Of a stretch of DNA of 64,000 bases, positions 20,906 to 52,044 are shown one piece after another; positions within the stretch are counted from its first letter, which is position 1, and each line of letters begins with the position of its first letter. The DNA is taken from the NCBI RefSeq assembly GCF_039233145.1, contig NZ_CP136419.1:780001-844000 (forward strand), written 5' to 3'. The position numbers and the translations under genes were made by a program. Source of the stretch: Moorella humiferrea (GTDB lineage Bacteria > Bacillota > DSM-521 > Neomoorellales > Neomoorellaceae). Under the pieces are notes generated by a model. It saw only the letters and a list, made by a program, of their open reading frames with translations, ran no database searches and was not told the DNA's origin.

Positions 20906-21719
20906 GCTGGTGTCGGAGCGACGGCAGGACGCCGCGCGGGTTATTGCCATAGCCAGCGGCAAAGGCGGCGTGGGCAAGACCAACATCGCCGTGAATCTGG
21001 GGCTGATCCTTGCCCGCCAGGGGCGGCGGACCCTCCTTTTCGACGCCGATCTGGGCCTGGCCAACGTGGACATCCTCCTGGGGCTCATTCCCCGTTACAG
21101 CTTAAAGGACGTCGTCGGCGGAGAGCGTAGGTTAGAAGAAATCATCGTCTGCGGTCCCCACGGGCTTCTCTTGGTGCCGGGGGCTTCGGGCGTCCAGGAG
21201 CTGGCCGATTTGGCGCCGCCGATCCGGGACCGGCTTATAGGGGAGTTGACATCCCTAGCCATGGGACTGGACGTCATTCTGGTTGATGCCGGTGCCGGCA
21301 TCAACAGGACGGTGCTGAGCTTTGCGGCGGCCGCCGGCGAAGCTATTGTCGTGGCCATGCCCGAACCCACTTCCATAACTGATGCCTACGGCCTGATTAA
21401 AGGACTTTATCGTTTAAACGTAACCATGCATTTGCTCATCAACCGGGCGGGATGGACGGAGGGCCGTCAGGCCGCCGACCGTCTCCGGGGTGCCTGCCAA
21501 CGTTTTTTACAGCTGGATCTGCCCCTTTTAGGGATCATCCCTGAAGACCCCAGGGTGGGTCAGGCGGTGCGGCGCCAGCAGCCCTTCTGCCAGGCGTATC
21601 CCACCTGCCCGGCCGCCCGGGCCCTGGAAGAAGCCGCCGCGAGGCTCTGGGGTAAAGAACTTCCGCCGAACCGTGGCGGCGGCTTCTGGCAGCGCTTGAG
21701 CCGGCTGCTGGGCAGGTAG
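20880..21719 (+). CDS. flhG: MinD-like ATPase FlhG (YlxH)
   Basis: 279 residues. Deviant Walker A 'SGKGGVGKTNIAVNLG', 'DADLGLANVDILLG' and the FlhG-style start 'LRRLVSERRQDAARVIAIASGKGG' identify it. It activates FlhF GTPase and limits flagellar number. It overlaps the end of flhF, indicating translational coupling. Confidence 0.94.
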   Translation: MDQAAGLRRLVSERRQDAARVIAIASGKGGVGKTNIAVNLGLILARQGRRTLLFDADLGLANVDILLGLIPRYSLKDVVGGERRLEEIIVCGPHGLLLVPGASGVQELADLAPPIRDRLIGELTSLAMGLDVILVDAGAGINRTVLSFAAAAGEAIVVAMPEPTSITDAYGLIKGLYRLNVTMHLLINRAGWTEGRQAADRLRGACQRFLQLDLPLLGIIPEDPRVGQAVRRQQPFCQAYPTCPAARALEEAAARLWGKELPPNRGGGFWQRLSRLLGR

Positions 21720-21734
21720 GAAGGGAGGCTTATT

Positions 21735-22403
21735 GTGGCCAGACCGAATTTTATAGCTGTAAACCTGCCGGTAATAATTAAAACTTCCGGCAGGGACGTT
21801 CGTACCATCGTCCAGGATACCCGGGAAGACGGCTTTGCCGTCCTGGCGCCGGCAGGGGAGGAGGTGGTCCTCCTGCCGGGTGAGGAGATTTTGGTGGTCT
21901 GCAACCGCCAGGATGCCCGTTATGAATTTGCGACCAAGGTACAGCGTTTCGTGCCCGAAGAACCTCCCCTTTACTATCTGGCCTATCCCGAAGAATACCG
22001 GCGGATTCAGGTGCGCTCCCACGTGCGTGCCAGGGCGGCCCTGGACGTGCGTTACGCCCCCTGGCCCGCGGAAGACTGGCCCCACCGTCCGCCCCGAGCC
22101 TGTGCCAGGGGGGTGACGGTAGATATAAGCGGCGGGGGAGCCCAGCTGGTTCTGCGGGAACCCATGGTTCCCGGCGACCTCCTTTATCTCGAAATCTGCC
22201 TGCCGGGAAGCCGCCGCGCGCCCCTGCATCTTGCGGGCCGGGTAAAAAGGGTGGCCCCGAGGGAAATAGACGGCGAGAGGCGCTATGAAGTCGGGGTGGC
22301 CTTTGAAGCTTTGAGCGAGAGGCAGGAGGATGAAATCGTGGCCTTCGTCTTCCGGCGGCTGCTGGAAGAAAGGCGCCGGGGAGGCTGGGAACATGGCAGT
22401 TAG
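21735..22403 (+). CDS. YcgR/MotI-type PilZ c-di-GMP receptor
   Basis: 222 residues, GTG start after GGGAGGC. The N-terminal half matches the YcgR_2 beta domain ('TIVQDTREDGFAVLAPAGEEVVLLPGEEI'). The C-terminal PilZ domain has the c-di-GMP motifs RRIQVR (about residues 96-101) and D-I-S-G-G-G (about 132-137). When bound to c-di-GMP such proteins brake the stator. Its place between flhG and the sigma factor, in an operon led by a c-di-GMP riboswitch, points to two levels of control by one messenger. It overlaps the next gene by 11 bases. Confidence 0.87.
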   Translation: MARPNFIAVNLPVIIKTSGRDVRTIVQDTREDGFAVLAPAGEEVVLLPGEEILVVCNRQDARYEFATKVQRFVPEEPPLYYLAYPEEYRRIQVRSHVRARAALDVRYAPWPAEDWPHRPPRACARGVTVDISGGGAQLVLREPMVPGDLLYLEICLPGSRRAPLHLAGRVKRVAPREIDGERRYEVGVAFEALSERQEDEIVAFVFRRLLEERRRGGWEHGS

Positions 22404-38871: not shown

Positions 38872-39698
38872 TGGCGGAAGCACCGGTCAACCCCCTGGTG
38901 CCCATGACGGGGCGCATCATTAAAATTGTGGAAGAAACCCCCGACGTTAAGACCTTCCACGTGACGACGGAGCAGGGCAAGCCCTTCACGCCTTTGCCGG
39001 GACAGCTGGCCATGCTTTCCCTCCTTGACGTGGGGGAAGCCATGTTCTCCATCACCTCCCAGGGTCCGGAACACCTGGAGCTGGCCATCAAAAGGGTGGG
39101 TATGCTCACCGACGCCCTCCATGAGGCTGAAGAAGGGCAGATGGTTGGCATCCGCGGTCCCTACGGCAACGGTTTCCCGGTGGAAGACCTCAAAGGCAAA
39201 GATATCCTCTTCATCGGCGGCGGCATCGGCCTGGCACCGGTGCGCTCTCTGATCAATTACTGCATCGAGCACCGGGAGGACTACGGCCACCTGTGGATCA
39301 TCTATGGCGCCCGTTCACCGGCCGACCTCTGTTTCAAGGACGACCTTTTCAACAACTGGCCCCGGGTGGAAAATTGCCGGGTGGACGTGACGGTGGACAA
39401 AGGCGACGCTACCTGGCAGGGTCATGAGGGCTTCGTGCCGGCCTTCGTGGAAGAGCTAAAACCGGACCCGGCGGGTAAAGTGGCCGTCACCTGCGGCCCA
39501 CCGATTATGATTAAATTTGTCCTCCAGTCCCTGGAGAAGCTGGGGTATAAGGACGACCAGATCATCACCACCCTGGAAATGCGCATGAAATGCGGCATCG
39601 GCAAGTGCGGCCGCTGTAACCTGGGAAGTAAATACGTCTGCCTGGACGGACCCGTCTTCACCCTGGCGCAGTTGAAGCAATTGCCGAATGAGTATTAA
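38871..39698 (+). CDS. flxA: FlxA-like FAD/NAD(P)H-binding oxidoreductase subunit
   Basis: 275 residues. FAD-binding barrel, then NAD-binding motif 'FIGGGIGLAPVRSLINYCI', 'IYGARSPADLCFKDDL', and a C-terminal [2Fe-2S] site C-x4-C-x2-C-x7-C ('KCGIGKCGRCNLG', then 'VC'). This is the PyrK/AsrB/FlxA class. It would accept electrons from NAD(P)H and is the entry or exit point of the Flx-Hdr complex. It is the last gene of the operon. Confidence 0.9.
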   Translation: MAEAPVNPLVPMTGRIIKIVEETPDVKTFHVTTEQGKPFTPLPGQLAMLSLLDVGEAMFSITSQGPEHLELAIKRVGMLTDALHEAEEGQMVGIRGPYGNGFPVEDLKGKDILFIGGGIGLAPVRSLINYCIEHREDYGHLWIIYGARSPADLCFKDDLFNNWPRVENCRVDVTVDKGDATWQGHEGFVPAFVEELKPDPAGKVAVTCGPPIMIKFVLQSLEKLGYKDDQIITTLEMRMKCGIGKCGRCNLGSKYVCLDGPVFTLAQLKQLPNEY

Positions 39699-39731
39699 GT
39701 CTCAAGTATAGTGAACGTAGATTATATAAAT

Positions 39732-39992
39732 GGCAGGCACATGTACCGGAGCCGTGAATAGCGGAGCGAAGGTCAAAAGGACAGGCGAGGTGAAGGATAC
39801 CGTTGCCGACGCTTAAGGCAAGCCTTGAGCACGCCTTTGAGAGGAGACAAAGGCCGACTCATAGAAAGATAAATGCCTGCGGAACCAGGAGCTTATTCAT
39901 TGGCAATCCGCAGGCGGCGTTGCAACGGTCCGAACCGAGCCGTCGTCCTGTCGGCGCGTAGCTTCTGAACGGCGAAGGGACATGGGCCTGCC
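39732..39992 (+). repeat. Structured intergenic element, long copy B (leader of PHP gene)
   Basis: The 309-base gap after flxA holds a 261-base element whose ends pair: 39732-39737 (GGCAGG) with 39987-39992, and 39740-39744 (CATGT) with 39980-39984. Inside are hairpins at 39833-39839/39848-39854 (GCCTTTG/CAAAGGC), 39875-39882/39908-39915 (GCCTGCGG/CCGCAGGC) and CGGT-CCGA-ACCG (from 39926). Blocks 39896-39916 and 39925-39983 match copy A (21 of 21 and 53 of 59 bases). It ends 15 bases before the next start codon. It could be a cis-acting RNA or a MITE-like repeat; I see no target duplication. Confidence 0.75.
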
Positions 39993-40007
39993 AAGAGGAG
40001 TTATACC

Positions 40008-40760
40008 ATGCCAGCAGACTACCATATCCACGGGCTGGCCCATGTGGGCCCGCCCCATACCGTAGAACGCCTTTTACCCTATGTAGAAGCGGCCAAAGCC
40101 GCGGGCCTTACGGAAATAGGCTTCGCCGACCACGACCGCTACCTGGAAGGGCTGGACTTTAACGTCTTTTCCGAACTAGAGCGGGTAACGGGGATGCCCG
40201 TCCGCGCCGGGCTGGAGATCGACTTCCGCCCGGAAAAAGACCACCGCCGGGAGCTGGCCGGACGTCCCTGGGATTATCTCATAGGTTCGGTCCATGCCAT
40301 CGGCAACTGGGATTTCGACCGTCCGGGACAGGAAGACGGTTTTAACGCCTGGGACATCGACGAGCTCTATACCGTTTATTTCAACCTGGTTGCCCAAGCG
40401 GCTTCAACCGGTCTTTTCCAGATTATCGGCCATCTGGACTTGATCAAAATTTACGGCCACCGGCCCCGTAAATCCGTGTTGACCCTGGCCGAGCCGGCCC
40501 TCAAGGCCGTAGCCGCCAGCGGCGCCGCATTGGAGGTCAATACAGCCGGCCTATTTAAGCCCGTGGGAGAAATTTATCCGGCCGCAGAAATTTTAGAGCG
40601 GGCCTTCAGCCTGAATATCCCCGTCACCATTGGTTCCGACGCCCACGCCCCCGGTGAAGTGGCCCGGGAAAGGGAGAGGGCGCGGCAGCTTCTGCGCCGC
40701 ATCGGCTACACCAGCCTGGCCACTTTTGCGCGCGGGGTTATGGCGACCGAATCGTTATAA
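40008..40760 (+). CDS. PHP-domain phosphatase, histidinol-phosphatase-like
   Basis: 250 residues. Metal-binding PHP motifs are in order: 'DYHIHGLAHVG', 'GFADHDRYLEG', 'RAGLEIDF', 'YLIGSVHAIGNWDFD', 'IIGHLDLIKIYG' and 'TIGSDAHAPGEV'. The spacing resembles HisK/HisJ-type histidinol-phosphate phosphatase, though other phosphoesterase substrates are possible. No other his genes are nearby. ATG 40008 follows AGAGGAG and the structured repeat. Confidence 0.82.
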   Translation: MPADYHIHGLAHVGPPHTVERLLPYVEAAKAAGLTEIGFADHDRYLEGLDFNVFSELERVTGMPVRAGLEIDFRPEKDHRRELAGRPWDYLIGSVHAIGNWDFDRPGQEDGFNAWDIDELYTVYFNLVAQAASTGLFQIIGHLDLIKIYGHRPRKSVLTLAEPALKAVAASGAALEVNTAGLFKPVGEIYPAAEILERAFSLNIPVTIGSDAHAPGEVARERERARQLLRRIGYTSLATFARGVMATESL

Positions 40761-40775
40761 AGACAATTTTGGTTA

Positions 40776-40804
40776 TTGACTCATTTCGTCCAGGCTGGTA
40801 TGAT
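40776..40804 (+). promoter_or_regulatory. Sigma-A promoter of orphan RNA
   Basis: TTGACT (40776-40781), 17-base spacer, TATGAT (40799-40804). Transcription would start near 40811. No gene with a ribosome site follows before two terminator-like hairpins. Confidence 0.75.
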
Positions 40805-40810
40805 GGACTT

Positions 40811-40933
40811 ACCAGCAGGTTGTCAAAGCGGGGGCTATCCATCCTTAACATATTATAGCCGTTCGCGTATCCCGGCGGCCTGGCTCAGGGCTACTCCACC
40901 CAGCCGGCTGCCGGATACGGGACGGCAGTTTTT
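40811..40933 (+). ncRNA. Candidate small RNA ending in a long GC hairpin terminator
   Basis: From the predicted start to 40933 lies about 120 bases with no credible reading frame. It ends in a strong hairpin: 40858-40862 with 40922-40926, 40866-40872 with 40913-40919, and 40874-40880 with 40906-40912, followed by AG and TTTTT (40929-40933). The 5' half (40811-40857) is less structured. It could be a free small RNA or a riboswitch-like leader whose gene is lost. I matched it to no known family. Confidence 0.5.
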
Positions 40934-41005
40934 GATAACTATCCCCTGGTTTCCTAAAAACGGCCGGAGCTCTTCGTTTACGTTCGGAGGGCCCCGGTAC
41001 CCTGG

Positions 41006-41034
41006 GTGGCAGCAATGTCTGCCACTATATTTTT
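41006..41034 (+). terminator. Second terminator of the orphan RNA region
   Basis: Perfect 7-bp stem GTGGCAG (41006-41012) / CTGCCAC (41019-41025) followed by TATATTTTT. It isolates the upstream region from the Mn2+ riboswitch promoter, whose first -35-like sequence overlaps its T-run. Confidence 0.75.
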
Positions 41035-41052
41035 GACAAATCTAAATAGGAC

Positions 41053-41081
41053 TTGACAGATTAGGAATGAGACTTTAACAT
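41053..41081 (+). promoter_or_regulatory. Sigma-A promoter of the Mn2+ riboswitch transcript
   Basis: TTGACA (41053-41058), 17-base spacer, TAACAT (41076-41081). The start would fall just before the aptamer. Another TTGACA at 41033 has no good -10 partner. Confidence 0.7.
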
Positions 41082-41090
41082 AAAATCGAA

Positions 41091-41218
41091 AAACAGCGGA
41101 CAAGGGGAGTAGCCCCGGAGTATTTCTCCGGTACCAGGTTCGTCAGCACGGCCGCCGGCCCGGGCCTGGTAGGCAACGCGCAAGACCTTCACCGCCCATG
41201 GGGCGATGGAGGTTTTTT
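41091..41218 (+). promoter_or_regulatory. yybP-ykoY manganese riboswitch with terminator
   Basis: The aptamer hallmarks are all present: AAGGGGAGTAGC (41102-41113), CGTCAGCACGG (41141-41151), and GCGCAAGACCTTC (41178-41190), with P1 pairing AAGG (41102-41105) and CCTT (41186-41189). The expression platform is a terminator: 41185-41197 pairs with 41201-41213 around the CGCCC/GGGCG core, followed by TTTTTT. P1 and terminator share 41185-41190, so metal binding should block termination and turn the gene on. The downstream gene is a cation antiporter, as expected for this class. Confidence 0.92.
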
Positions 41219-41275
41219 ATTTACCTCATGGTCAGGTGAAAGGGCTGCTGAAATTATAACAGAAGGGGAGAAACG

Positions 41276-42283
41276 ATGGTAGATGTAGTACTGCTTTTAA
41301 TCAGCCTGGGAGTTATTCTGGCGGGGGCGGAAGGGTTTACCAACGGTGTCGAATGGCTGGGCAAGAAGCTGAAATTGACGGAAGGCGCTGTGGGGAGCAT
41401 CCTGGCGGCAGTGGGCACGGCCCTGCCGGAGACGATGATCCCCATTGTGGCCATTATTTTCGGCGGCGGCGGCCACGCCGGTGAAGAAATCGGCATCGGC
41501 GCCATTCTGGGGGCGCCCTTTATGCTCAGCACCCTGGCCTTTTTCATCAGCGGTATCGCCGTCATCGCCTATCGCCACCGCCGGCCCAATTATCCCAAAA
41601 TGAATCTGGATACTAAAACCATGGGCCGCGATTTGAGTTTCTTTCTCCTCGTCTATACCGTAGCCGTGCTTGCTTCCTTCCTGGGGACCCATATCTGGAA
41701 GCAAATCATCGCCATTGGCCTGGTTATCGCCTACGTCACTTATGCCTATCTGACGGTGACCAACGGTCACACCCTGGAAGAAGGGGAGGAGTTAAACCCC
41801 CTCTACCTGGCCCGGAAGGCTGCAGAACCCTCAACGGCAATTGTGTTAGTTCAGGTATTTTTGTCCCTGGGACTGATTGTCGGCGGAGCCAGGCTCTTTG
41901 TTAACGGAGTGGAGGACCTGGCGCGGCTCATGGGAGTCCCGCCCTTTGTCCTGGCGTTAATCATCGCCCCCATCGCCACCGAGCTGCCGGAGAAATTCAA
42001 CAGCATCATCTGGATCGGCCGCGGCAAGGACACCCTGGCCCTGGGCAACATTACCGGCGCCATGGTGTTCCAGAGTTCGGTGATCCCGGCGGTGGGCATC
42101 ACCATGACTAGCTGGGAGTTGACCCAGGGGGCGTTGATCAGCGCCATTTTGGCCATTATTTCCGCAGGCCTGGTCTACCTCCAGATCCGTTCCAAGAAAT
42201 ACCTGACGCCCTATACATTAATTGGAGGCGGCGCCTTTTACAGCATCTTTGTCGTCCTGGTTATCGGCGGTTTTATTCGTTAA
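41276..42283 (+). CDS. CaCA-family cation antiporter under Mn2+ riboswitch control
   Basis: 335 residues, about ten membrane helices in two halves, each with an alpha-repeat motif: 'GSILAAVGTALPETMIPIVAIIFGG' and 'ALIIAPIATELPEKFNSIIWI'. This is the Ca2+/cation antiporter superfamily. A yybP-ykoY riboswitch directly upstream suggests it exports Mn2+ (or Mn2+ along with Ca2+), which is inference from the regulator. ATG 41276 follows AGAAGGGGAG. Confidence 0.85.
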   Translation: MVDVVLLLISLGVILAGAEGFTNGVEWLGKKLKLTEGAVGSILAAVGTALPETMIPIVAIIFGGGGHAGEEIGIGAILGAPFMLSTLAFFISGIAVIAYRHRRPNYPKMNLDTKTMGRDLSFFLLVYTVAVLASFLGTHIWKQIIAIGLVIAYVTYAYLTVTNGHTLEEGEELNPLYLARKAAEPSTAIVLVQVFLSLGLIVGGARLFVNGVEDLARLMGVPPFVLALIIAPIATELPEKFNSIIWIGRGKDTLALGNITGAMVFQSSVIPAVGITMTSWELTQGALISAILAIISAGLVYLQIRSKKYLTPYTLIGGGAFYSIFVVLVIGGFIR

Positions 42284-42316
42284 GGATTATAAAATAAGTC
42301 ACTAAGATTTATGCAG

Positions 42317-42344
42317 GGCCCGGTGTGCAGCCACCGGGCCTTTT
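42317..42344 (+). terminator. Terminator after the antiporter gene
   Basis: Nine-pair stem GGCCCGGTG (42317-42325) / CACCGGGCC (42332-42340) followed by TTTT. Confidence 0.85.
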
Positions 42345-42376
42345 AGTATACTAAAATTGGAAGGTGGTGACCCGGT

Positions 42377-43663
42377 ATGCCGCGGGTAGTCGTGGTCGGG
42401 GGCGGCTGGGCGGGCTGTGCGGCGGCCTTGGCCGCCCGCCGGGCTGGCGCGGAAGTGATTCTTCTGGAAAGAACGGATATGCTCCTGGGTACCGGACTGG
42501 TCGGGGGGATTATGCGTAACAACGGTCGTTTTACGGCGGCGGAAGAAATGATAGCTATGGGCGGCGGCGAACTGTTCGCCCTCTGCGACAGGGTGGCCCG
42601 GCACCGCCATGTTGACTTTCCCGGTCACCGCCATGCCTGGCTCTACGACGTGGCCCGCATCGAACCCCTGGTCCGGCAGACCCTGGCTGAAGCGGGTGTC
42701 GTGATTCATTTTCTAGGCCGGGTCACCGCCGTCAAAACGGCGGGGGAAAGCATTGAGGCAGTTGTTACCGAGGGGGGACGGGCGTACTACGGTAGTGTTT
42801 TCATCGACGCCACCGGAACGGCGGGACCGCCGGCCAACTGCCGCCGCTACGGCAACGGCTGCGCCATGTGCATTTATCGCTGCCCGGCCTTCGGCGGCCG
42901 CGTAGGCCTTGCCGCCCTGGCGGGGGTTAAGGAATATGCGGCTTTGAAGCGGGGCGGTGGCCGCGGAGCTTTAAGCGGTTCCTGCAAGCTCCACAAAGGT
43001 TCCCTTGCCCCATGGCTTGCAGCCGAACTGGAGGAAAAGGGGGTCGTCGTCCTGCCACTACCCCGGGATTGGCCGGATAAAAAGGAACTGCTGCAGCGCA
43101 AGGCCTGCCAGCAGTATGCCTTAAACGAGTATGCGGACAATATTGTCCTCCTGGACACCGGACACGCCAAACTCATGGCCCCCTTTTTCCCCCTGGAAGC
43201 CCTGCGCCGGGTTCCAGGGCTGGAAAACGCCCGCTTTGAGGACCCCTATGCCGGTGGTTCCGGCAATTCGGTCCGCTTCCTGGCTATGGCGCCGCGGGAC
43301 GATGCCTTAAAGGTGCAGGGCCTCAACAACGTCTTTTGTGCCGGGGAAAAGGCCGGCCCCTTCGTCGGCCATACCGAGGCCATCGTCACCGGGACTCTTG
43401 CGGGCCACAACGCAGTACGCTTCCTGACCGGCAGATCCCCGCTGATTTTGCCTTCTACACTTGCGTGCGGCGATATTATTAAATATACCCGCCTGCAGGT
43501 GGAAAAAGGTGACGGCCTTTACCAGCGCTTTACCTTTTCCGGGTCCCTTTACTTTGAACGTATGCAGGCCCTCGGGCTATATACCACCGACCGGGAAGTG
43601 ATCAGCAACAGGGTGGCGGACCTGGCCGGCATTTTTTCCGTACCGCTGCTAGGAAGGAAATAG
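42377..43663 (+). CDS. FAD-dependent oxidoreductase, MnmG/TrmFO-like
   Basis: 428 residues. N-terminal FAD fold 'VVVVGGGWAGCAAALAARRAGAEVILLER', 'VFIDATGTAGPP', and a C-terminal TrmFO-like segment 'NNVFCAGEKAGPFVGHTEAIVTGTLAGHNAVR'. The GidA-like FAD_oxidored family fits. A Cys-rich segment 'CAMCIYRCPAFGGR' after the first FAD part may bind an iron-sulfur cluster or act in redox chemistry. It is not a canonical tRNA methyltransferase TrmFO by its middle region. Substrate unknown. ATG 42377 follows GGAAGGTGG. Confidence 0.75.
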   Translation: MPRVVVVGGGWAGCAAALAARRAGAEVILLERTDMLLGTGLVGGIMRNNGRFTAAEEMIAMGGGELFALCDRVARHRHVDFPGHRHAWLYDVARIEPLVRQTLAEAGVVIHFLGRVTAVKTAGESIEAVVTEGGRAYYGSVFIDATGTAGPPANCRRYGNGCAMCIYRCPAFGGRVGLAALAGVKEYAALKRGGGRGALSGSCKLHKGSLAPWLAAELEEKGVVVLPLPRDWPDKKELLQRKACQQYALNEYADNIVLLDTGHAKLMAPFFPLEALRRVPGLENARFEDPYAGGSGNSVRFLAMAPRDDALKVQGLNNVFCAGEKAGPFVGHTEAIVTGTLAGHNAVRFLTGRSPLILPSTLACGDIIKYTRLQVEKGDGLYQRFTFSGSLYFERMQALGLYTTDREVISNRVADLAGIFSVPLLGRK

Positions 43664-51011: not shown

Positions 51012-51206
51012 ATGCCTACCTATGATTTCCGCTGCCAGGAATGTGGCGAACGTTTTACCGTAAAGATGTCCTGGCAGGAAAAGGATAAAGCCACCTGCCC
51101 GGCGTGCGGCAGCCAGAAGCTGCAGCAGCTCTTTACCGGGATCACCATCCTGGGAGGCAGCAGCGGCGGTGGTTGTGCGGCGCCGTCGGGAAGCCGTTTC
51201 AGTTGA
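51012..51206 (+). CDS. FmdB-type zinc-ribbon protein
   Basis: 64 residues from ATG 51012. 'MPTYDFRCQECGERFTVKMSW' and 'CPACGSQKLQQLF' give the CxxC...CxxC ribbon of the FmdB/CxxC_CXXC_SSSS regulatory family; a Gly/Ser-rich tail with one Cys follows. The family is widespread, with ill-defined function. Confidence 0.85.
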   Translation: MPTYDFRCQECGERFTVKMSWQEKDKATCPACGSQKLQQLFTGITILGGSSGGGCAAPSGSRFS

Positions 51207-51221
51207 GGCGGTTAAGGATAG

Positions 51222-51247
51222 AGGGCCGGTGGCCCTTATTTTATTTT
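51222..51247 (+). terminator. Terminator after the FmdB-like gene
   Basis: AGGGCC (51222-51227) / GGCCCT (51231-51236) with a GGT loop, followed by TATTTTATTTT. Confidence 0.75.
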
Positions 51248-51250
51248 TAT

Positions 51251-51280
51251 TTGACACCCTGCCCTTTGTTAAGTTATGAT
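51251..51280 (+). promoter_or_regulatory. Sigma-A promoter of the TPR gene
   Basis: TTGACA (51251-51256), 18-base spacer, TATGAT (51275-51280), 21 bases before the start codon. Confidence 0.75.
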
Positions 51281-51300
51281 AGGCGGGGGAGTGAAATAAG

Positions 51301-52044
51301 ATGGGCATGATGTCTTCCCTGCGCCGGTTGGGGAAAAAGCGGCCGGTTTTAGGGATTTTGTTTGTAGTTGTCTTGAGTATAGGGTTGATAGGTAGCTATG
51401 CCATTTTCGCTTCGCCGCGGGGAGCGTCTACGGTACCGTCTGCCCAGGATGCGGCATCCGGCTCCGACCAGCAGGCCGAAGATCTGCAGAAGGCCGCCCA
51501 GGAACAAATCAACCAGCTGCAGGCGCAAATAAACAATTTGCAGCGGGAACTGCAGTCCCGGCCTGACGATAAAGACCTCCTCCTGCAGCTGGGCGATACT
51601 CAATACAGCCTGGGCACCATGTATTTATTTACCGGCGGCGATCCGGCCAAGGCCGGCGAAAGCTTCAAGGCAGCAGTAAGCAACTATCAGCAGGTGGTGA
51701 AACTAAATCCCCAGGAAAAGGGGATCTACCTGCGCCTGGCCGGAGCGGCCCTGTATGCTGGGGACGATAAGCTTGCGGAAGAAAACTTTCAGGCCGCCAT
51801 CAAGGCCGATCCCACCGATAATAATGCCCGCCTGAGTTACGGCATGTACCTGGCTTCCATAAAGGGTGACTTCCAGGGGGCCGTAAATCAGTGGCAGGAA
51901 ATTTTAAAAAACAACCCGGACAAAGAACTGGCCGATCAGGTACAGGAAATGATCAAGCAGGCCGAAGCGGCCCGGCAACAGCAGCAGGCAGGTGCAGGAG
52001 CAAGCGATCAGCCTCCAAACCAGGCCCAGCAGTCGCAGCAGTAA
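51301..52044 (+). CDS. Membrane-anchored TPR protein
   Basis: 247 residues. One N-terminal membrane helix (about 16-36) is followed by a coiled coil (about 55-85, Gln-rich). Then come several TPR units ('SFKAAVSNYQQVVKLNPQEKGIYLRLAGAALYAGDDKLAEENFQAAIKADPTDNNARLSYG' spans two repeats when split) and a Gln-rich tail. Probably an external scaffold protein. No family-specific function is evident. Confidence 0.8.
   Translation: MGMMSSLRRLGKKRPVLGILFVVVLSIGLIGSYAIFASPRGASTVPSAQDAASGSDQQAEDLQKAAQEQINQLQAQINNLQRELQSRPDDKDLLLQLGDTQYSLGTMYLFTGGDPAKAGESFKAAVSNYQQVVKLNPQEKGIYLRLAGAALYAGDDKLAEENFQAAIKADPTDNNARLSYGMYLASIKGDFQGAVNQWQEILKNNPDKELADQVQEMIKQAEAARQQQQAGAGASDQPPNQAQQSQQ

Follow-up and report, generated by a model that had tools for sequence, protein, structure and literature searches.

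Between two genes of Moorella humiferrea lies a promoter followed by hairpins and two terminators, with no evident gene among them, and this raises several questions: does such a unit make a small RNA of its own? Is it what is left of the control region of a gene that has been lost? Or does it serve to end the transcript of its upstream neighbor?

The locus and its setting

The unit was analyzed within a stretch of 64,000 nucleotides (hereafter the window), corresponding to positions 780001-844000 of a genome that consists of a single contig of 2,671,946 bases. Its neighbors are a PHP-domain gene (40008-40760) upstream and a sodium/calcium exchanger gene (41276-42283) downstream, both of them in the same direction as the unit. 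Given that the exchanger gene has its own promoter and a manganese-type riboswitch upstream, and that the neighbors share this direction, the unit is not simply the exchanger leader. The elements of the region are the following (positions are those of the window):

40776-40804, plus strand: promoter TTGACT-17-TATGAT with an extended -10 (TGG at 40796-40798), from a motif scan against shuffles
40794-40816, unstranded: perfect 7-bp inverted repeat GCTGGTA-N9-TACCAGC, read from the sequence
40811-40933, plus strand: predicted small RNA, short form of ~123 nt, its start placed 7 bases after the -10 and its end at the T5
40811-40857, plus strand: predicted 5' region of 47 nt, containing CCAUCCUU (fold of 40811-40935)
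40811-41034, plus strand: predicted long form of ~225 nt, on read-through (z -5.0 to -5.2)
40858-40926, plus strand: GC-rich first hairpin of -48.1 kcal/mol (z -6.35; stability reached by 0 of 500 shuffles)
40929-40933, plus strand: T5 of the first terminator, two bases after the hairpin (rank 1 of 193 tracts of at least five T)
40963-40998, plus strand: middle hairpin (stretch 40960-41000, z -3.4; 2 of 500 shuffles as stable)
41005-41034, plus strand: second terminator, hairpin 41005-41026 plus T5 41030-41034 (simple terminator scan; 41003-41028, z -3.4)
41053-41081, plus strand: riboswitch promoter TTGACA-17-TAACAT (motif scan)
41093-41249, plus strand: Mn2+ riboswitch leader (yybP-ykoY, RF00080), 20.1 bits, under the cut-off of 45

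The riboswitch promoter thus follows directly on the second terminator, as the preliminary description of this region had it. The unit resembles the RF00080 leader next door in being structured, in having a promoter and a terminator of its own and in lying on the same strand, but it lacks the GGGGAGTAGC core of that leader, any RF00080 match and a gene before its terminators.

A promoter of its own and a candidate operator

The near-consensus promoter with a 17-base spacer that had been proposed is present, and it is unique of its grade in the window. TTGACT (40776-40781) and TATGAT (40799-40804) are separated by 17 bases, with a TG one base ahead of the -10 element, and this is the sole site on either strand of the 64 kb that combines a TG extension with 10 or more matches out of 12, for a mean of 0.1 in the background of 20 dinucleotide shuffles of the window. 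Without regard to the extension, both strands hold 53 promoter-like sites with at least 9 of 12 matches (shuffle mean 26) and 15 with at least 10 (shuffle mean 3.6).

The inverted repeat straddles the -10 element and the predicted start and resembles a repressor site, which makes it a possible operator. This brings in an alternative reading, in which the unit would be a remnant control region, i.e., the promoter, the operator and the attenuator-like terminator of a lost gene, which may still yield a short RNA without function. The position of the repeat speaks for it, but no second site for the pattern (CTGGTATGATNNACTTACCAG) is present in the genome when up to 3 mismatches are allowed.

Hairpins and terminators

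About 120 bases ending in a strong GC hairpin with T5 had been described downstream of the promoter, and both elements are there. The first terminator ranks above all the other tracts of at least five T in the window when the 20-75 nt immediately preceding each tract are compared for stability, and the stretch 40851-41000 (plus strand) has, for its G+C, the highest stability of 5108 overlapping 150-nt stretches from both strands. The second and third most stable of these lie elsewhere, at 51176-51325 and 21601-21750 (both plus strand). The opposite strand of the first hairpin is also stable (z -4.4), so the stem alone leaves the strand unfixed, and it is the promoter and the T-tract that fix it. 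For the whole unit, the plus strand reaches z -5.0 (40810-41036) or -5.2 (40811-41036), and the other strand z -3.4. A simple terminator scan of 39000-43000 listed only the second of the two terminators, presumably because the stem of the first is long and bulged, and the terminator-like sites in that region, 4 in number, do not exceed the shuffle mean of 4.6.

The second terminator, reported at 41006-41034, begins one base earlier and is weaker than the first: its hairpin alone reaches -13.0 kcal/mol (z -3.4, a stability matched by 3 of 500 shuffles), and its rank of 6 among the 193 tracts depends on -35.2 kcal/mol, a value reachable only by including the preceding hairpin at 40963-40998. The latter is an addition to the elements described before. 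Read on the minus strand, this middle hairpin is followed by a T5 at 40956-40960 (rank 19 of 193).

When the RNA stops at the first terminator, its 5' 47 nt are predicted to be mostly unpaired, with one weak hairpin in the fold of 40811-40935. When it is folded past 40950, a long-range helix (40811-40950) closes around a bulge; this helix is not significant, since shuffling the flanks of the first hairpin gave an equally good or better fold in 219 of 1000 cases. The significant structure consists of the three local hairpins. As a separate observation, both T-tracts run on as TTTTTGA(T/C)AA (40929-40938 and 41030-41039), and TTGTCAAA at 40820-40827 is able to pair with either of them, which by our estimate is close to chance level. 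The alternative pairings TTGTCAAA/TTTGACAA and CCACCCAG/CTGGGTGG were discarded on a similar estimate, two perfect 8-base pairs being about what chance provides in 371 bases.

Hairpins placed ~100 and 245 nt past the stop codon of the PHP gene, on its strand, could also be tandem intrinsic terminators of the transcript of that gene, the promoter being fortuitous; intergenic terminators are, after all, ordinary. Against this stands the fact that just ahead of these hairpins lies a promoter unmatched in grade elsewhere in the window, and the same slot in congeneric genomes bears on it as well (see below).

Coding potential

Is there, in spite of its apparent emptiness, a gene in the unit? Its longest frame (40776-41036) is open for 86 codons from a TTG at 40776, or for 79 from an ATG at 40800, which leaves room for a small protein of 78-86 residues. 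That ATG, however, falls within the -10 element, and the codon score of the frame (-0.26 per codon over 40800-41033) falls short of all the pieces sampled from six neighbor genes (minimum 0.07), in a comparison that favors those genes because the codon table was built from them. Nor does the frame match any Pfam family at E 1 or any protein in viral contigs, and a search of 249 genomes gave no convincing relative: the matches in 8 other genomes appear only at E 0.0009-0.0065 and 18-21 bits, most of them with internal stops. A small protein is thus highly improbable, and the description of the unit as one without a gene is borne out. The remnant reading is touched too, since no trace of a gene is left in the frames tested and two more hairpins still follow the attenuator-like one, the last of them with a T5.

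Known RNA families

The family of the candidate RNA had been called unknown, and Rfam agrees: nothing in the unit scores at or above the gathering threshold, the only sub-threshold hit being the microRNA mir-3017 (E 2.9). In the window as a whole, the only Rfam match above cut-off is a c-di-GMP-I riboswitch at 2057-2189 (53.3 bits).

A closed shape like that of 6S RNA (RF00013) was entertained and then discarded. It had been suggested by the way in which the read-through form folds at minimum energy, as a long hairpin bearing a large bulge on its 5' side, but the unit has no RF00013 match up to E 5, its closing helix does no better than shuffled flanks, and the 6S RNA of this genome lies elsewhere, at 1742656-1742841 (107.5 bits), exactly one 6S RNA above cut-off being found in each of 11 out of 11 Moorella genomes.

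Intergenic trans-acting small RNAs of bacteria have their own promoter, an open 5' region for pairing and a strong terminator hairpin with a U-tract. In its sequence signals the unit is like them, having its own promoter, no coding signal, a predicted open 5' region and a hairpin with a U-tract; it differs from them in belonging to no known family, in having no homologue among the genomes searched and in that its target is only conjectural.

Conservation and the slot in relatives

The preliminary description had put forward a self-contained candidate small RNA whose hairpins should be conserved among relatives. Its anatomy stands, as does the absence of both a coding signal and a known family, but conservation of the hairpins was not found in the genomes searched. 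A DNA search (BLAST) of 60 relatives plus the own genome matched 1 of 61, the own one, and no convincing match to the unit appeared in 10 congeneric genomes. In a sample of the phylum, 204 of 398 genomes (the own included) gave some match at E 0.5, none of them a convincing homologue: the best after the own covers 23 bases (100%, E 1.1e-4, locus L020), and the non-self matches are short and scattered over the query, as are the short or weak matches of the 11 loci aligned from that sample (L020-L029, L033). With a single-sequence covariance model and stricter filters, only the own genome fell below E 0.2 in the set of 40 relatives plus own, four others of these 41 coming at E 0.22-0.99, and the same approach over 25 loci and the window yielded nothing convincing, nor did one exact 21-base pattern of the unit in viral contigs.

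A young RNA need not be conserved to count as one, but the absence of conservation lowers the claim of function; conversely, missing conservation does not show missing transcription. It leaves two readings, a young RNA gene specific to the species or the remnant of a control region, and is itself one of the points in favor of the latter.

The place of the unit in related genomes is informative in this regard. Relatives broadly retain the order PHP gene, riboswitch, exchanger gene, and in a survey of 16 loci, the own included, the end of the PHP gene and the riboswitch core were both found by script in 14, the exceptions being L009 (no PHP gene in the stretch covered) and L016 (no riboswitch core). 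The slot between them measures 343 nt here, 59-251 nt in 9 relatives of the genus and 15-124 nt in 4 other members of the family. A separate second promoter was found only here and in 0 of the 9 measurable Moorella relatives, all of which (9 of 9) returned the riboswitch promoter that served as positive control for the scan; the latter was found in 0 of the 4 other family members. In L010 there is a second 9/12 promoter site, which overlaps its riboswitch promoter. Nor do the 9 genus slots hold any hairpin-plus-T tract as strong as the first terminator, the best being -28.2 kcal/mol with a T4 (L008) and five of the 9 either lacking a tract of at least four T or showing at most traces of structure upstream of it. 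The longer slot, together with a second promoter and a strong terminator seen only here among the slots surveyed, indicates that the unit lies in DNA specific to this lineage, as far as the genomes compared go.

The survey weighs differently on each alternative. The PHP gene would generally need no terminator of this strength, since none is found in the 9 congeneric slots, and we regard tandem terminators of its transcript as unlikely. Extra lineage-specific DNA is what a remnant control region would leave, a reading that we hold to be about equally unlikely on the balance of the points given above and in this section. It is also what the insertion of a palindromic or mobile element would bring, and the hairpins are stable on both strands, as expected from such an element. 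Nevertheless, the unit is present in a single genomic copy (one match at E 0.001, the second, of only 23 bases, at E 0.05), the phage and plasmid collections hold no match to it, and no flanking duplication is evident among the repeats found, all of which makes an inserted element improbable.

Two further observations concern this slot. Three relatives (G005, G010 and G006) carry in it a different conserved element, GTTAAAT...GTAATATTTAA, of ~100 nt and with an inverted-repeat-like frame (L010 1107-1326; L011 1108-1322; L012/L044, L044 being also one of nine loci, L039-L047, that were used out of a set of 80). Its consensus fold over the three sequences reaches -24.7 kcal/mol, and in 6 of the 40 pairs both partners have changed. 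The second concerns the riboswitch core GGGGAGTAGC, which precedes the exchanger gene in the own locus and in 14 of 15 relative loci (L003-L015 and L017; not L016). None of the 15 reaches the Rfam cut-off for RF00080, and up to E 1 the matches are limited to L005 (25.5 bits) and L006 (22.5 bits). The manganese-type riboswitch before the exchanger is thus a diverged branch, to which the Rfam model gives low scores.

Candidate targets

The open 5' region holds CCAUCCUU, which is complementary to AAGGAUGG. A search of the whole genome with one 14-base seed pattern, up to 2 mismatches being allowed, yielded 20 matches, the unit itself included, and the reversed control yielded 8. A few of the matches fall at start codons, including those of hpf-, nusA-, glyS- and rsmA-like genes (names assigned by eye), and are not separable from a Shine-Dalgarno-like background; such matches are to be expected of a seed that looks like a Shine-Dalgarno complement. 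Two of the matches (G000:C1:1858713 and 2095845; L147, L148) lie in identical 50-base stretches and so belong to a sequence repeated in the genome. Compared with 120 start regions of the window, the duplex with nusA is ordinary (-15.9), those with rsmA (-23.6) and hpf (-24.4) are among the best 5%, and that with glyS (-29.8) lies beyond the background minimum of -27.6; these energies are not counted as evidence, since all four genes were picked from a whole-genome search.

A small-RNA gene of one species?

We favor, with a probability of roughly one half, the reading of the unit as an autonomous small-RNA gene, seen so far only in this Moorella genome. In that case, the RNA polymerase would start at ~40811 from the strong extended -10 promoter and produce a transcript of ~123 nt, in which 47 nt of mostly unpaired RNA precede a GC-rich hairpin of 69 nt and a U5 at which transcription would end. 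On read-through, the transcript would extend to ~225 nt and stop at the second terminator; this terminator would, in addition, keep the downstream riboswitch unit shielded. The open region, with its CCAUCCUU, would most likely act in trans on mRNAs near their start codons; that it does so is a tentative proposal, clearly less probable than the RNA gene itself. A more specific version is improbable: a newborn species-specific RNA whose open CCAUCCUUAA would mask the start regions (UUAAGGAUGG) of translation-related hpf-like and nusA-like genes, its promoter being gated by a repressor at GCTGGTA/TACCAGC.

The promoter, the hairpins, the T-tracts and the lack of a coding signal are read directly from the DNA, and from them we infer transcription, its start and its end, and the pairing with mRNAs. 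What argues for an RNA gene is that the only promoter of its grade is followed, ~50 nt past the predicted start, by the strongest hairpin-plus-T5 of the window, in its most stable 150-nt stretch out of 5108, with a z-score on the plus strand beyond that of the other strand and no coding bias. What argues against it is the lack of a convincing homologue, a slot that is shorter and devoid of a second promoter in 9 of 9 congeners measured, terminator-like sites that are not in excess in the 4-kb neighborhood and a target search that is not discriminating.

Searches of the literature gave no work devoted to small RNAs of Moorella, co-mentions at most. The payoff is modest, as the unit would be an object of a common kind and not a new one, of local interest until the RNA is detected. 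If it is transcribed, it would be a small-RNA gene of one species, missing at the same place in close relatives with syntenic flanks, and would thereby offer a case for the origin of bacterial small RNAs.
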